A stretch of DNA of 64,000 bases, taken from the NCBI GenBank assembly GCA_945861885.1, contig CAMAVR010000001.1, positions 148,886 to 212,885 of the forward strand, given 5' to 3'. Of this stretch, positions 15,987 through 21,365 are shown one piece after another. Made by a program: the position numbers and the translations under genes. The notes below the pieces were generated by a model. The model was not told the origin of the DNA. It was given only the letters and a program-made list of their open reading frames with translations, and made no database searches. This stretch comes from Nannocystis exedens. GTDB taxonomy: Bacteria > Myxococcota_A > Polyangia > Polyangiales > Polyangiaceae. Each line of letters starts with the position of its first letter. Position 1 is the first letter of the stretch.

Positions 15987-16247
15987 CTACGCTGATGCCA
16001 ATAGCTCTGTTTTCGCTTCTAGCTTCCGGCGCACTAAGTCGTACGAGCCTGCTAGCGTTGTCACTTCTTGGAGCTCTGTGTCTGCGATTTTGATCTGATA
16101 TTGCCGCTCAATCGCCGCGACAATTTCGACCCCCATCATTGAGTCAATTCCCAAGTCTTTGAAGTCCTTCGTATCCGGAACATCGTCAATCTCGGCGATT
16201 TCCGATATCAGATCTCGAAGCTCAGTTCTTAGAGCTGCATCCGACAT
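15987..16247 (-). CDS. Acyl carrier protein (second of a pair)
   Basis: 86 residues, with AAGGAG 8 nt before the ATG. The motif LGIDSMMGVE puts the phosphopantetheine-bearing Ser at residue 36, in the normal place of the ACP fold; the following MM differs from the common DSL. It lies 33 bp downstream of another ACP gene and in the same operon as a CFA-type methyltransferase. The pair faces two ketosynthase genes and an oxoamine synthase across a divergent promoter, so it is probably a dedicated carrier for that pathway and not the housekeeping fatty-acid ACP. Confidence 0.9.
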   Translation of the reverse strand: MSDAALRTELRDLISEIAEIDDVPDTKDFKDLGIDSMMGVEIVAAIERQYQIKIADTELQEVTTLAGSYDLVRRKLEAKTELLASA

Positions 16248-16280
16248 TTCCGTTGCTCCTTCCCCGGTATAGTTTTGTGA

Positions 16281-16529
16281 TTACGCTTCGACGCGCTGTG
16301 CGACTACGTCGATCAAGTCTTTGACGGTCTGGATTCCGGCTAGCTGCTCGTCAGGAATCTGGATCTTTAGCTCTTTTTCCATCGATCCGATGATTTCGAG
16401 CATCCCCAATGAATCGATGCCTAGCTCACTGATGACGGTTGCTTCGGAGACCTGCGCAAACTCTTTTTCAACTACTTCGCCGGCGGTCTTTCGAAAAATC
16501 TCGAGCAAATGCGCTTTTTGAGTCGTCAT
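16281..16529 (-). CDS. Acyl carrier protein (first of a pair)
   Basis: 82 residues. LGIDSLGMLE carries the phosphopantetheine Ser at residue 40, and helix II/III residues such as IPDEQLAGIQTVKDLI are typical. It is clearly diverged from its neighbour at 15987-16247, so the two are unlikely to be a recent duplication and may carry different intermediates, for example starter versus extender. It sits 78 bp downstream of the methyltransferase gene in the same direction. Confidence 0.9.
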   Translation of the reverse strand: MTTQKAHLLEIFRKTAGEVVEKEFAQVSEATVISELGIDSLGMLEIIGSMEKELKIQIPDEQLAGIQTVKDLIDVVAQRVEA

Positions 16530-16607
16530 AATCTAAATTTCTCCGTCAATTTCACGCTGCCAGCGTAGCGGCCGCACTTCAGTTTGGTTGGGGTCACAGG
16601 GTGACAT

Positions 16608-17471
16608 TTAATCGATTCGGCGCAACGAATACTGCGCCAGTGATTGGTAGTGCTTCTCAAAACTGTTCACGCAGGTGCTCAGGTAGCGGTCGTAATCTGA
16701 GAACACCGTGTCGCCCCAGTGGGCTCGAATTTCTTTTTCGTGATCGCGGAGGCGCATTAGCCAATTGGCGCACGTTTTTTGGTAATCGGTGCGGCGGGTT
16801 TTTAGCTCCACAATTTCCCAGTATGGGTTTACCGAAATAACAATATCTTCGAGCCGCGGAGTGATCCCGCCTGGGAAGATCGTGTAGGTCGAATGCCCAA
16901 TATCTTGAATCTCTTGTCGCGTTCGCGGGGCGCGATTTCGCAATATCGTTTGGAGCGAAAAGTAGGCTCCTGGGTTTGTCCACTCGTGGCAGAGGCGGAA
17001 GTAGTTGCGATAGAGCTCGATGTGTTTGCCGGCTCGCGCCTGCTCCGGGCTGGCGATGTGCTCCATCATGCAGATCGAAATTAGCGCATCGAACTTCTGC
17101 TCTGGTTTGTAGTCGACATAGCTGCATACGCTTGCCGTTACGCCAGGCATTTTTCGAGCCATAATCTCGGCGTGCTGTGCGCGCGACAGCGTGATTCCGT
17201 GCGCTTCTCGCACCCCTTTTTGCGTTGTCTGAAACTCGAGGTTTGCGCCCCACCCGCAGCCAATATCGAGCAGCCGCTTTTCGGGCGTTAGATGCGCGGA
17301 ATCGTGGTGCCACGCCAACTTGCGCAATTGCGCCTCTTCGAGAGATGTCGTGTGCCACGCACCGTCATCGAAGATTCCGCAGGTGTAGTTCATCCGCTCG
17401 TCGAGCCAGAGGCGGAAAAAATCGTTTGAAACGTCGTACGAAACTTCTACATCCGATTGAGTCGATCCCAT
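16608..17471 (-). CDS. SAM-dependent methyltransferase of the cyclopropane-fatty-acid synthase family
   Basis: 287 residues. YDVSNDFFRLWLDERMNYTCG and LDIGCGWGANLEF (SAM motif I) are hallmarks of the CFA / mycolic-acid cyclopropane synthase / methyltransferase family, which acts on lipid acyl chains or carrier-bound acyl groups. Further motifs are GITLSRAQ and ICMMEHI, the latter in the active-site region. It is shorter than E. coli Cfa (about 380), lacking that enzyme's N-terminal extension, and so resembles mycobacterial CmaA/MmaA enzymes. It heads the minus-strand ACP operon and is divergent from the ketosynthase operon. It may methylate a polyketide-like or acyl intermediate of this cluster; that is inference. 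Confidence 0.88.
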   Translation of the reverse strand: MGSTQSDVEVSYDVSNDFFRLWLDERMNYTCGIFDDGAWHTTSLEEAQLRKLAWHHDSAHLTPEKRLLDIGCGWGANLEFQTTQKGVREAHGITLSRAQHAEIMARKMPGVTASVCSYVDYKPEQKFDALISICMMEHIASPEQARAGKHIELYRNYFRLCHEWTNPGAYFSLQTILRNRAPRTRQEIQDIGHSTYTIFPGGITPRLEDIVISVNPYWEIVELKTRRTDYQKTCANWLMRLRDHEKEIRAHWGDTVFSDYDRYLSTCVNSFEKHYQSLAQYSLRRID

Positions 17472-17648
17472 ATTGTTGGGTCAATTACGGTACGATTGGT
17501 TCGAGCACAATCAGAACCGACATTTTCTAAGAACAAATTGCAAATTGGCGAGTGGCTTTTTCGCAACACGTGTATCGGTTTTCACACATATGTTTTTGAA
17601 TTCAATCCGTTGCCTATGAAGCAAATCGGTGGTTATTAAGGTCCCCCA
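17472..17648. promoter_or_regulatory. Divergent intergenic promoter region of the lipid/polyketide cluster
   Basis: 177 bp separate the methyltransferase (minus) from the ketosynthase (plus). The stretch is visibly more AT-rich than the flanking genes (runs such as TTTTTCGC, TATGTTTTTGAATTC), as expected for back-to-back promoters. I cannot fix a -35/-10 pair with good spacing on either strand. Confidence 0.5.
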
Positions 17649-18956
17649 TTGGAGCCCGCCTCATATTCAAATAGCCGGCCAAATAGCCGTCGTTGTCGGC
17701 GCGTTTTTGTTACCGGCGTTGGTGTGGTTAGTCCCATTGGGCTCGGCCGCACCGAGTTTTTCGAGGCGCTTGCCGCGGGGCGCTCGGGCGTCCGCCCGGT
17801 CGCGCTGTTTGATGCGAAGCAGCTTGGGCGCGAAAACGCTGCGGAAGTAAAAGGGTTTGTCGTTCGCGACCATCTCACGCGCGCTGAAGCGCACCGCATG
17901 GGGCGCTGTTCGGCCATGGCGCTCGCCGCCGCTCGAATGGCGATGCGCGATGCACACTTAGCCGAAGATGGTCTCTGTAGGCCACGCACGGCGGTGGTTC
18001 TCGGTACGACAATGGGCGAAGCCGATGTGGTTGAAGCGCTCAGTCGCGATTGGATCGTGCGCGGAGAAAGTTCCGTTCGGGCGTCGCTCGTTCCGAAAGT
18101 TGGTGCGAGTTTGCTTCCGATTCACGTCGCGCGCGCCTTCGGTGCCGAGGCTGCTGTGCTGACGTTGCCCGGTGCGTGCGCGGCGGGCAATTACGCAATC
18201 GGCGTTGCGGCCGACATGATTCGCTACGGTCGCGCCGACGTCGTTATTACGGGCGCCGCCGAGTTGATGCGCGAGCTGCAATACAGTGGGTTCGTGCGTC
18301 TCGCGGCGATGGCGCCGACGCGATGTCAGCCGTTCGATCTCAATCGTCAGGGGCTTATTCTTGGCGAAGGGGCCGGAGTGATGATTCTCGAGTCGGAAGA
18401 GCACGCGGCAAGGCGCGGCGCGAATCTTCAAGCCGAAGTGGGCGGCTGGGGGATCAGCTGCGACGCGTATCACATCACGCGGCCGCATCCTGATGCCGCT
18501 GGGAGTATCGCGGCGATGAGGCGCGCGATTGACGACTCGCTTCTTTCGCCAGACGACGTCGATTTTATCAATGCGCACGGCACCGGAACGCGCGCCAACG
18601 ATGCCGCCGAAGCGCGTGTCGTGCACGAAGTGTTTGGCGACCGACGCGTGCCAATTTCAAGCGTAAAAAGCATGCTGGGGCACTGCATGGGGGCCGCGAG
18701 CGCGCTCGAAGCTGTGTCGTGCATCATGACGATCGAGACGGGCATCTACCCGCCGACGATCAACTACGAAACGCCCGATCCCGAGTGCGACGTTAATGTT
18801 GTCGCAAATGTTGCGCAGCGTGGCCCTGCGAACGTGGTCGTGAATAATTCGCTCGCGTTCGGCGGCTACAACGCCGTGACATGTTTCGCGAAACCAGGCT
18901 TTCTCCCGCCGCCCGCTCTTCGCACTCGCCCCCCAAGCGCTCGAGGCGCATCGTGA
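17649..18956 (+). CDS. Beta-ketoacyl-ACP synthase, catalytically complete
   Basis: 435 residues from a TTG at 17649. The fold starts at RRVFVTGVGVVSPIG, and no ATG or GTG is available nearer. The thiolase-fold triad is intact: PGACAAGN (Cys near 177), NAHGTGTRAND (His near 310) and KSMLGHCMGA (Lys near 340, His near 345). It therefore should perform decarboxylative Claisen condensation of carrier-bound acyl and malonyl groups (FabF/KS-alpha type). Its stop overlaps the GTG start of the next ketosynthase-like gene (GTGA), as in KS-alpha/KS-beta pairs of type II polyketide systems. It is divergent from the ACP/methyltransferase operon. Confidence 0.92.
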   Translation: MEPASYSNSRPNSRRCRRVFVTGVGVVSPIGLGRTEFFEALAAGRSGVRPVALFDAKQLGRENAAEVKGFVVRDHLTRAEAHRMGRCSAMALAAARMAMRDAHLAEDGLCRPRTAVVLGTTMGEADVVEALSRDWIVRGESSVRASLVPKVGASLLPIHVARAFGAEAAVLTLPGACAAGNYAIGVAADMIRYGRADVVITGAAELMRELQYSGFVRLAAMAPTRCQPFDLNRQGLILGEGAGVMILESEEHAARRGANLQAEVGGWGISCDAYHITRPHPDAAGSIAAMRRAIDDSLLSPDDVDFINAHGTGTRANDAAEARVVHEVFGDRRVPISSVKSMLGHCMGAASALEAVSCIMTIETGIYPPTINYETPDPECDVNVVANVAQRGPANVVVNNSLAFGGYNAVTCFAKPGFLPPPALRTRPPSARGAS

Positions 18957-20119
18957 ATCGCTACGCAATCACCGGATTAGGCATTGTGTCGGCGCAAGCG
19001 ATCGGCGCCGACGGATGGCTCGACGCTGTGCGTGCCGGGCGCGCAATCGATCATCGCGAGCCGATCGAATCGTTCGATGCGGCGCGCTACCCAGGCGCGC
19101 GCGTTGCCGAAGTACGAAACTTTGATCCGGCGTCATTTCTAGGCGAAAAAGGGCTCCGTACGCTCGATCGTCTTACCAAAATGATTGTCGTGGCGACGCG
19201 ACAAGCGCTGGAGCATGCCGGTATTAAATCAGGCGGTCGCTTCATCTCGATGTCGCCAACCCGCGTAGGCTTCTGCTGTTCGAACGCGCATGGGAGCGTT
19301 GAAGCGATTGTCGAGACCGATCGCATCGCGCTACTCGAAGACCCGCGCTACATCAATCCGTCAAAGTTTCCGAATACCGTCGCCAACAGCGCTGCCGGTT
19401 ACGCGAGTATTTGGGAAGATTTGCGCGCGCTCAACGTTGCGGTATCGAATGGCAATTGCGGCGCGCTCGATACGCTCAGCTGCGCCGACATGTTTTTCCA
19501 AACCGATCGCGCCGATGCCATTTTAATCGGCGGCGCCGAAGTGATGCACGAAGCGCTCTACATGGCGTTCAGGCGCGCCGGCTTTTGTGGGCCGTCGTCG
19601 CGCACCGTGCTTGGCGAAGGGGCCGCCATTTTTTGTCTCGAACCAGAAGACATCGCGGCGGATCGCGGCGCAAAAATTATGGCGTATGTGACCGGCTACG
19701 GGACAGCGTTCGTCGCGCCAACACGCGCATCGCAAGTCGTCGCGCCATCAAAAGAAGCTATGACACGAGCCATTTTAAATGCGCTCGATGCCGCGGAGCT
19801 TCGCCCTTCCGATATCGATATGGTCGCATCGGGCGTTTGCGGTTTCGACCTCATGGATACGCCTGAGAAGGCAGCGATCGCCGACGTTTTTGGCGACAAC
19901 ATCGCGGTTTGTGCGCCAAAAGCGCTTGTCGGTGAAACGCTCGGCGCTTCGGGCGCGATGGCGATGGCGTCGGCGCTCGGGTGGATGCAAAGCGACCAAG
20001 CTGTCAACTTTGCCCCGACGCTCATATCCGGTCATTTTTTGAAGTCGCCGAGCGCAGTACTTGTTACAAGCATCGGCTTCTACGGCAACGCATCGGCCGT
20101 CGTGATGCAGCGTTCATGA
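18953..20119 (+). CDS. Degenerate ketosynthase (KS-beta / chain-length-factor-like partner)
   Basis: 388 residues using the GTG at 18953, which overlaps the previous stop (GTGA); the family start NRYAITGLGIVSAQAIG follows at once. It has the thiolase fold with a Cys in NGNCGALDTL (near 169), but the two catalytic His positions are lost. Where HGTGT is expected there is ASGVCGFDLMDTPEKA, and where KxxxGH is expected there is APKALVGETLGASG. Such a protein cannot run the usual His-assisted condensation and more likely pairs with the upstream KS as a heterodimer partner. Unlike classical chain-length factors, the nucleophile Cys has not become Gln. The oxoamine synthase gene follows 16 bp downstream. 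Confidence 0.85.
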   Translation: MNRYAITGLGIVSAQAIGADGWLDAVRAGRAIDHREPIESFDAARYPGARVAEVRNFDPASFLGEKGLRTLDRLTKMIVVATRQALEHAGIKSGGRFISMSPTRVGFCCSNAHGSVEAIVETDRIALLEDPRYINPSKFPNTVANSAAGYASIWEDLRALNVAVSNGNCGALDTLSCADMFFQTDRADAILIGGAEVMHEALYMAFRRAGFCGPSSRTVLGEGAAIFCLEPEDIAADRGAKIMAYVTGYGTAFVAPTRASQVVAPSKEAMTRAILNALDAAELRPSDIDMVASGVCGFDLMDTPEKAAIADVFGDNIAVCAPKALVGETLGASGAMAMASALGWMQSDQAVNFAPTLISGHFLKSPSAVLVTSIGFYGNASAVVMQRS

Positions 20120-20135
20120 TTGTAAGGAGAGCCCT

Positions 20136-21365
20136 TTGAGTTGGATTGATGAAAAAGCGCACGCCGAACTCGCGCGCGTTCGCGAGGCGAGAGAAAAGCA
20201 AGTTTACCCGTACTTTCGCCAGTTCGAAAAAGGTGGGCTTCACACGTCGATCGATGGCAGGAGCGTTATCAACTTCAGCTCCAACGACTACCTTGGGCTG
20301 ACAAACCATCCGCGCGTCAAAGAGGCGGCAAAGCTCGCGGTCGAGCGTTATGGGTGCGGCCTTAGCAGTTCGCGTGTGCAAGCGACAACGGTCGAACACG
20401 TGCAGCTCGAAGAGCGTTTGGCAAAGTGGTTCGGTTTTGAAAAGTGCTTACTGTTCACGACCGGCTATCAAGCGATGCTCGGTACGATCGTTTCGTTCGC
20501 CGACAAAGATACGACGCTCGTTCTCGATAGCTTTAGCCACGCGTGCATTCTCGACGGCACATTCTTGGCGGCCGGCATTCCAGGCCGTGGCCCCGAAATT
20601 CGATTTTTTAATCATAATTCGGCAAAGAGCCTCGAGCGCATTTTAAAAACGCGCGACCGCAAAAACGCGATGGTGATCGTTGAGGGGATTTATTCGCTCG
20701 ATGGTGACATGGCGCACCTGCGCGAATTTGTCGAAATTTGCGCTAAATATGATGCCGTTTTGGTTGTCGATGACGCCCACGGTACCGGCACGCTCGGCCA
20801 TCGCGGCACCGGCATCCTCGAGCATCTCGGGCTCGAAGGCCAGGTTCCGATCGTCGTGTCGACGCTGTCAAAAACGTTCGGCGGCATCGGCGGCATCCTT
20901 CTCGGGTCGACGGAAGTTGTGGAGCACGTGCAGCACACAGCGCGATCGTTTTTGTTCAGCGCATCGCTACCGGTGCCGGTTGTCGCCGCCGCATCAACGA
21001 TTTTGGACATGATGGAAGAAGACGGCCCCGCGATGGTGAAAGAGCTTCACCAAAAAGCCGATTACTTCCGCGGTGAGCTAGTGAAAGCCGGCTTCGACTT
21101 AGGCGCAAGCAATACGCACATCATGCCTGTCATGTGCCGCGAAGAGCGAAAGACAATGTTCATGCACGTAGCGCTCTTAGAGTGCGGCGTGCTGATGGTG
21201 CCGATCACCTACCCGGCCGTAAAGCAAGGCGAAGAGCGTCTGCGGGTAAACGTCACGAGAGGTCACACACAAGAAGACCTCGACACCGCAATCGAGCTCC
21301 TAAAAACGTACGGCGAGGCGTTTTTTGTGCTCTCGGGCGACGAGCTTGGTCCGATGGAAGACTAA
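20136..21365 (+). CDS. Alpha-oxoamine synthase (serine palmitoyltransferase / KAPA synthase family)
   Basis: 409 residues from a TTG at 20136 with AAGGAG 6 nt upstream. This is a PLP-dependent class II aminotransferase-fold enzyme: FSSNDYLGL, DSFSHACILDG, VEGIYSLDGD, VDDAHGTGTLG and the PLP-lysine motif TLSKTFGGIGG (Lys near 245). The family condenses an amino acid with an acyl-CoA or acyl-ACP, losing CO2 to give an alpha-aminoketone: BioF (Ala), SPT (Ser), Kbl (Gly), PigH (Ser). Located with two ACPs and a KS/KS-like pair, it most likely releases the carrier-bound chain as an amino-ketone. A BioF role cannot be excluded, since bioA lies 10 kb away, but the surrounding genes argue for a dedicated pathway. 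Confidence 0.88.
   Translation: MSWIDEKAHAELARVREAREKQVYPYFRQFEKGGLHTSIDGRSVINFSSNDYLGLTNHPRVKEAAKLAVERYGCGLSSSRVQATTVEHVQLEERLAKWFGFEKCLLFTTGYQAMLGTIVSFADKDTTLVLDSFSHACILDGTFLAAGIPGRGPEIRFFNHNSAKSLERILKTRDRKNAMVIVEGIYSLDGDMAHLREFVEICAKYDAVLVVDDAHGTGTLGHRGTGILEHLGLEGQVPIVVSTLSKTFGGIGGILLGSTEVVEHVQHTARSFLFSASLPVPVVAAASTILDMMEEDGPAMVKELHQKADYFRGELVKAGFDLGASNTHIMPVMCREERKTMFMHVALLECGVLMVPITYPAVKQGEERLRVNVTRGHTQEDLDTAIELLKTYGEAFFVLSGDELGPMED

Follow-up and report, generated by a model that had tools for sequence, protein, structure and literature searches.

The prodiginine enzymes PigJ, PigH and RedL are multidomain proteins of pigment clusters: PigJ is a ketosynthase (KS) plus a KS-like domain, and PigH joins two acyl carrier protein (ACP) domains to an alpha-oxoamine synthase (AOS). 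RedL and PigJ/PigH carry out a ketosynthase step directly before AOS release, and the substrates of RedL are a fatty acid and glycine (PMC12654105, PMC11188435). In Pseudomonas, PfSgaAB, a polyketide synthase (PKS)-AOS pair with serine palmitoyltransferase (SPT) activity, gives PKS-derived sphingolipids (PMC12134224). For the SPTs of Caulobacter and E. coli B, the preferred acyl donor is a chain bound to a dedicated ACP, which has its own synthetase to load it; dihydroceramide formation requires in addition both an acyl-CoA N-acyltransferase gene (yghO, also called aca, or CC_1154) and an epimerase gene (PMC9386255). The gene names bCerS and CerR are used in PMC11087976. Here we describe a locus of Nannocystis exedens that encodes two ACPs, a KS, a degenerate KS (KS') and an AOS as separate proteins, and that, within one large Polyangiales lineage, probably takes the place of SPT as the entry module of ceramide synthesis: a carrier-bound, ketosynthase-coupled module. 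We take yghO/CC_1154 and the epimerase gene to be bCerS and CerR, going by their locus numbers, and use those names below.

The window is the whole 64,000-nt stretch analysed (GCA_945861885.1, contig CAMAVR010000001.1, 148,886-212,885; contig C1 of genome G000). Its source assembly is 3.42 Mb, with completeness of 100% and contamination of 0.09%. The original prediction had proposed that the locus makes an aminoketone, either an unusual sphingoid-like lipid or an alkaloid, and the sphingoid-like inference was largely right. Genome-wide distribution gives it stronger grounds than the list of parts did, and the product is predicted. Among the matches listed from the open-licence literature, judged by titles and the starts of abstracts, none describes this gene set.

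Alternation with an SPT-like enzyme

Distribution was evaluated in 174 genomes, each at least 80% complete, of the order called Polyangiales here (G and L numbers are genome and locus handles). The cluster AOS was called at 620 bits or more with an AOS profile, scoring the top 10 first-look candidates of each genome; a second, SPT-like AOS was called at E<=1e-110 with a long SPT-like AOS query, scoring the top 8. The cluster AOS is present in 96 of the 174 genomes and the SPT-like AOS in 62, both together in none and neither in 16, where absence depends on the completeness of metagenome-assembled genomes (MAGs) and on the number of first-look candidates scored. Scores below 620 bits are separated by a gap, apart from three partial AOS pieces; G024, G136 and G076, which hold such pieces, are among the genomes scored as "neither". 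KS' (profile, E<=1e-60) occurs in 84 genomes, representing 47 of 82 genera: 81 of the 96 cluster-AOS genomes, none of the 62 SPT-type genomes, and three others. G136, G076 and G052 have KS' and no full cluster AOS. Among 189 evenly drawn Myxococcota genomes, 24 hold the cluster AOS (E<=1e-115), all of them in the window's order.

Its best NCBIfam model, its tree grouping and its neighbours make the alternating enzyme a candidate SPT. Two such proteins were scored, and both match SPT best (449 and 469 bits, versus 339 and 347 for bioF); in the tree described below the enzyme groups with the SPT of S. multivorum and four SPT-like rows (100/98). In L193 and L196, an SPT gene is followed by one for a 375-aa protein and then by an epimerase-like CerR. 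Coordinates on one contig place the same SPT-bCerS-CerR row in G009, G016, G023, G112, G115 and G147. Three SPT-like AOS proteins carry N-terminal extensions of about 100-150 residues (L193, 6751-8265; L167, 7908-9551; L169, 8613-10253).

The 375-aa protein has no Pfam match, and a PDB profile search with this bCerS candidate returned three matches, all with E above 0.6 and regarded as chance hits. The G000 copy is 39% identical over its full length to YghO of E. coli BL21 (E 1e-93), and CerR is 34% and 33% identical to the sphingolipid-operon epimerases of Pseudomonas (E 1e-51) and E. coli (E 8e-48). YghO homologues (E<=1e-40) are present in 162 of the 174 genomes: 89 of the 96 with the cluster AOS, 61 of the 62 with the SPT-like AOS, and 12 of the 16 with neither. 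The window's genome (contig C51), G117 and G011 each encode a bCerS-CerR pair, and no AOS was found in these three stretches. In G045 (L203), some 260 bases separate the AOS gene from that of a bCerS homologue, and the two are divergent. Sorangium is reported to make sphingolipids (Keck et al., 2011). A Sorangium SPT has been placed in an SPT subgroup with those of Bacteroidetes and other myxobacteria (PMC9386255).

We favor a sphingolipid function because the cluster AOS alternates with an SPT-like AOS and co-occurs with a bCerS homologue. The alkaloid or secondary-metabolite option fares poorly on the same grounds: the AOS takes turns with an SPT-like enzyme and, genome-wide, mostly accompanies a bCerS homologue. 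The most explicit form of that option is a discrete, type II RedL (or PigJ plus PigH), in which, after a single nonreductive malonyl extension, the AOS would release the chain by joining it to glycine or serine, and the product would cyclise spontaneously into a 4-keto-2-alkylpyrroline or 3-hydroxypyrrole. This idea was initially favored, and was demoted after the distribution tests. The gene content suits it: an activated fatty acid, two ACPs, a KS and an AOS, with no constant reductase in the locus, and a KS with a partial-length match to the PigJ model (5.8e-25). We nevertheless consider it rather unlikely, given that 158 of the 174 genomes hold either the cluster AOS or the SPT-like AOS and never both, that most holders also have bCerS, and that tailoring genes are not constantly linked. 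Genus g41 speaks against it too, and for the ceramide reading. All 14 of its AOS-holding genomes lack KS' (E<=1e-60) and 11 of the 14 have bCerS; in the three fetched loci (L199, L200 and L202) ACP2 adjoins the AOS, and no match to KS, KS', ACP1 or FAAL (the fatty acyl-AMP ligase described below) was found within 17-18 kb. A CerR-like match near the AOS in L202 was weak (29%, 84 bits) and was not used.

The conserved unit

The arrangement ACP2-ACP1-(FAAL)<>KS-KS'-AOS, divergent at <>, recurs across the Polyangiales. A scan of named genomes identified 79 loci. The MAGs that carry the locus bear labels such as Labilithrix, Polyangiaceae, Sandaracinaceae and Myxococcales; six of the 79 loci are labelled otherwise (four Omnitrophota, one Thermomonospora, one cyanobacterium), and these have no AOS match. 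Three of the Omnitrophota loci (L120, L121 and L127) and the Thermomonospora locus (L122) contain distant KS' relatives (31-33%) and further KS genes with no AOS nearby; the three Omnitrophota loci also show ACP matches.

Seventy loci have a cluster-type KS. Of these, 49 include enough upstream DNA to be read, and another, non-identical 49 include enough downstream DNA; the window locus is excluded from all three sets. Upstream, ACP2 was found in 45 loci, ACP1 in 36, FAAL in 28, a desaturase in three, and the methyltransferase (MT) of the window in none. Downstream, KS' adjoins KS in 44 loci, and an AOS lies within 5.5 kb in 38. (One locus table kept only the best of overlapping matches, so that some KS' genes are labelled KS there.) With KS' in 84 of 174 genomes and 47 of 82 genera, and with the core neighbourhood recurring, the arrangement is far beyond chance. 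The expected co-occurrence of all six genes thus holds for the core and fails for the MT. As had been observed in the window, the parts are separate genes, not fusions, and the gene maps made for relatives agree. No reductase or tailoring gene is constantly linked to the locus in those maps.

Searched with the window KS', 55 of 58 other related genomes give a match at E<=1e-20; those in the weaker range, about 1e-20 to 1e-32, we regard as ordinary FabF-like proteins. An isoleucyl-tRNA-synthetase-like gene flanks the unit on one side in 18 loci, and a thiE-like gene on the other in 16. In the window, the flanks are a PF00133 gene and a PF02581 gene, with thiG farther out. A YbgC-type thioesterase gene (one product scanned) adjoins an ACP gene in 15 loci.

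The ketosynthase pair

The window KS has the triad Cys177, His310 and His345 (numbered from its TTG start), and each of the 68 KS proteins above 330 aa in the fetched loci keeps Cys-His-His. All 75 KS' proteins of the matching set have another residue in place of the first His, and the second is changed to Glu in 74 and to Asp in one; the Cys is retained in 58. The predicted contrast between an intact and a degenerate ketosynthase is therefore borne out well beyond the window. The start of KS' is most likely GTG 18953 rather than the listed ATG 18881. This GTG overlaps the KS stop codon as GTGA, with GAGG six bases upstream, so the proposed translational coupling of KS' to KS stands, with the start corrected.

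Both proteins have features of type II KS-chain-length-factor pairs: a catalytic KS, a partner without the triad, and coupled genes. The two are a putative heterodimer. Although FabF-like, the KS scores 396 bits with the NCBIfam fabF model, under the cut-off of 493.75. The closest solved sequence relatives of both proteins are in one PDB entry, 9s5h: chain B for KS (1.1e-114) and chain C for KS' (6.3e-37). As two chains of one entry, B and C presumably form a heterodimer themselves.

The oxoamine synthase

The window AOS reaches no NCBIfam equivalog cut-off. Its best model is bioF, with 335 bits against a cut-off of 426.45; it scores 304/460 and 267/493 (bits/cut-off) with the glycine C-acetyltransferase models and 224/338.55 with that for ALAS. 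The top rank of bioF lends some color to an ordinary BioF, Kbl or ALAS (for biotin, threonine or haem) that happens to lie next to unrelated fatty-acid genes. This explanation is scarcely credible. Besides the score short of the bioF cut-off, the window's genome has a second AOS (two in all at E<=1e-5), on contig C24, scored best as bioF (366 bits, also under the cut-off) and followed by a PF13500 gene. PF13500 we take to be the domain of BioD. Given this BioF-like AOS beside a PF13500 gene, the window AOS need not be invoked for a role in biotin synthesis. Among the recurrent gene families of the locus, which are partly named, none was recognised as bio, tdh or hem.

A tree of 36 AOS rows points the same way (L002 was left out of the AOS alignment for a frame error). 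BioF, Kbl and ALAS are split from the SPT rows and the cluster AOS (99/96), which, with the separate BioF-like AOS, supports the earlier view that this enzyme is neither BioF nor Kbl. The cluster AOS rows form one group (100/100), with another Polyangiales class as its sister (100/99). Among the SPT rows, only that of S. multivorum was taken from an entry that bears the name SPT; we labelled the remaining four through an adjacent ACP or by similarity. An alarm for two long branches meeting touches rows outside the cluster AOS.

The active-site residues of the S. multivorum SPT are Asn52, His138, Asp210, His213, Ser243 and Lys244 (PMC10196870). All six are kept in 13 of 13 cluster AOS rows, and most are common to the whole family.

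Two loci contain members of the sister class (46-49% identical to the window AOS) beside ACP genes and several genes that look like short-chain dehydrogenases (one scanned): L170, 4709-12596, and L172, 7956-14700. L170 has a KS and a FabA-like gene as well. These loci appear to be a further, more reductive-looking AOS cluster. On a Streptomyces plasmid (L182, 1-13056), genes for an AOS, KS, KSIII, MaoC dehydratase, AMP ligase and ACP lie beside genes annotated as trpA and ectoine synthase.

Evidence against a ceramide role

Several observations weigh against the locus as a replacement for SPT. Most general is that the alternation follows lineages; no species tree enters the comparison, so its Fisher p value overstates the case and is not valid as independent evidence. 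The enzyme assignments themselves fall short of formal thresholds. The cluster AOS, on the SPT side of the 99/96 split, lies outside the SPT group in a tree with several long rows, is under the SPT cut-offs (331/640, CFB; 290/500, beta; 222/670, alpha), and is scored 4 bits higher by bioF than by the best SPT model; the SPT-like AOS proteins of other genomes are under the SPT cut-offs too. The unit is also incomplete in places: the AOS is not within 5.5 kb in 11 of the 49 loci with enough downstream DNA, and FAAL is missing from the window locus and from 21 of the 49 loci readable upstream. Genus g41, having kept the AOS and lost KS', shows that the AOS does not always depend on KS'. Nor is the ceramide side uniform. 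Seven of the 96 cluster-AOS holders have no detected bCerS homologue and 12 of the 16 "neither" genomes hold one; CerR (E<=1e-25) was found in only 42 of the 96 genomes with the cluster AOS, 30 of the 62 with the SPT-like AOS and seven of the 16 with neither; and in G045 the AOS contig stops 17 bases past the AOS, with KS/KS' on another contig. Finally, the amino-acid-side loop (79-86) reads GLSSSRVQATT, or GLGSSR in two rows, unlike that of the SPT, BioF, Kbl and ALAS rows, so the amino acid is perhaps not serine.

This loop, together with those seven genomes and the further AOS genes of some cluster-AOS holders (up to seven matches per genome, among the matches listed, which go down to about 315 bits), would suit an enzyme that makes some other aminoketone lipid: a 1-deoxy, amino-acid-specific or sulfonolipid-like base that does not pass through bCerS, with sphingolipids coming from another, unrecognised SPT. 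Such a division of labor is unlikely. Besides the cluster AOS, the window's genome has only the BioF-like AOS; overlap with the SPT-like AOS is zero; and in G045 the AOS adjoins a bCerS homologue.

Putative acyl-chain loading and the methyltransferase

Between ACP1 and KS, many relatives have a gene of about 600 aa for a FAAL (PF00501 in the three scanned), whose best NCBIfam model, "fatty acyl-AMP ligase", gives 496 bits, under the cut-off of 600. FAAL-like matches in the window's genome (E<=1e-15) are on contigs C76 (43%), C9 (38%) and C49 (partial, 32%), with none at the locus. In the window, the slot often held by FAAL in relatives is occupied by the MT, which matches the Pfam CMAS model over its full length (177 bits, residues 5-280) and scores under the NCBIfam cut-offs for cyclopropane fatty acid (CFA) enzymes.

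The MT had been counted among the shared parts of the pathway. It is dropped here as a core component: in none of the 49 loci readable upstream was a homologue found, and MT relatives belong to other operons. Homologues (E<=1e-20) are present in 29 of 58 other related genomes. In 19 such loci that were fetched, FAAL adjoins the MT in seven and the other 12 lie elsewhere (in one of the 12, L160, an ACP follows). Six of the seven, L146, L147, L151, L152, L155 and L157, are FAAL-MT-ACP-KS operons with a single KS, four of them with a di-iron desaturase before it. All seven genomes carry the SPT-like AOS, and the operon of the six may feed that enzyme, as the window unit would feed its own AOS. 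The seventh locus (L145, G006:C267, 5249-15244) encodes in series a FAAL, an MT, an ACP, a 2012-aa KS-AT-ACP-KR-DH-AOS protein and a phosphopantetheinyl transferase. Its MT is the closest relative of the window MT (69%), and the large protein fuses a PKS with an oxoamine synthase, a Polyangiales example of the general SgaAB type.

A proposed pathway

Combining the precedents of the ACP-fed SPTs, the PKS-AOS pair and RedL/PigJ-PigH, we infer a route through FAAL, KS/KS', ACP2, AOS and bCerS/CerR. In its fuller form, as in relatives, FAAL would load a fatty acid onto ACP1. KS, the catalytic subunit, and KS', the noncatalytic one, would add at least one malonyl unit. The extended chain, its new keto group perhaps first reduced by fatty-acid enzymes of the host, would move to ACP2, which would present it to the AOS for decarboxylative condensation with an amino acid (serine, or glycine or alanine), giving a 2-amino-3-ketone; serine is our guess, from the pathway. 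The long-chain base would then be N-acylated by bCerS/YghO and reduced by CerR, both encoded away from the locus. In the window organism, the MT may methylate or cyclopropanate the chain, and its position leads us to guess that it acts while the chain is on ACP1.

The locus has a KS pair and no ketoreductase, which suggests a more speculative variant: the AOS might act on a 3-ketoacyl-ACP to give a 3,5-dioxo long-chain base, trapped as ceramide by bCerS before pyrroline closure. We regard this as doubtful. If true, a whole myxobacterial lineage would have a new class of membrane sphingolipid, made by a hybrid polyketide-sphingolipid pathway.

If the ceramide assignment is correct, a machine of carrier proteins coupled to ketosynthases has taken over the committed step of sphingolipid synthesis throughout a large lineage of bacteria. 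Screens for known SPTs alone could then overlook these sphingolipid makers.

Gene map of the window

The six genes of the locus sit where the original prediction placed them, around a divergent gap (Table 1). Positions in the window derive from a list of open reading frames and their translations; codon-model gene calls were poor for this window. Both ACP translations have a D-S motif, which we take to be the phosphopantetheine attachment site, in agreement with the earlier assignment. The AOS starts at TTG 20136, with AAGGAG six bases upstream. The single divergent promoter that had been proposed comes down to geometry: a scan for sigma-70 patterns gave no site in 17472-17648.

Table 1. Features of the Nannocystis exedens locus, in window coordinates
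Feature	Position	Strand	Evidence and proposed role
ACP2, acyl carrier protein	15987..16247	-	PF00550 2.1e-14; proposed AOS donor carrier
ACP1, acyl carrier protein	16281..16529	-	PF00550 6.5e-11; proposed carrier of loaded acyl chain
MT, CFA/CMAS-type methyltransferase	16608..17471	-	PF02353 5.1e-52; accessory, non-core
Divergent intergenic gap	17472..17648	.	sequence
KS, FabF-like ketosynthase	17649..18956	+	PF00109 1.3e-36, PF02801 6.9e-35; Cys-His-His intact
KS', chain-length-factor-like, without both catalytic His	18953..20119	+	ketoacyl-synt N 2.9e-14 (PF00109), C 4.1e-13
AOS, PLP (pyridoxal phosphate) alpha-oxoamine synthase	20136..21365	+	PF00155 (Aminotran_1_2) 2.3e-52; proposed SPT replacement

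Comparison with known systems

The AasR-AcpR-SPT system of Caulobacter crescentus and E. coli BL21, as described in PMC9386255, resembles the locus in that a dedicated acyl-ACP synthetase and ACP feed a PLP oxoamine synthase; that system and the proposed pathway both include an N-acyltransferase and a reductase of the epimerase type. Two Polyangiales FAALs are 34% and 37% identical to E. coli AasR over nearly their full length. Unlike AasR-AcpR-SPT, the locus adds KS/KS' and a second ACP, its AOS is of a separate lineage, and bCerS and CerR are encoded elsewhere in the window's genome. A set resembling the E. coli B sphingolipid genes (acyl-AMP ligase, epimerase, ACP, AOS and ABC transporter) is present on the Pseudomonas plasmid pPNP1 (L184, 1-11179), flanked by two IS5 transposase genes that share one protein accession.

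Within the order, the SPT-like loci L193 and L196 have homologous bCerS and CerR partners. They differ from the window unit in having no ACP, FAAL, KS or KS' match within the locus, and their type of SPT differs in its N-terminal extension and in never sharing a genome with the cluster AOS.

PigJ plus PigH, and RedL, share ketosynthase chemistry, carrier proteins and an AOS with the locus. In contrast to those enzymes, the window system consists of single proteins, is conserved throughout a lineage, and has ceramide genes in its genome. PfSgaAB likewise feeds polyketide chemistry to an AOS, and is described as an iterative type I PKS (PMC12134224), whereas the window locus encodes separate type II proteins and no ketoreductase. 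The locus may be regarded as a discrete counterpart of RedL and SgaAB chemistry, and predicts unusual membrane lipids in cultured myxobacteria.

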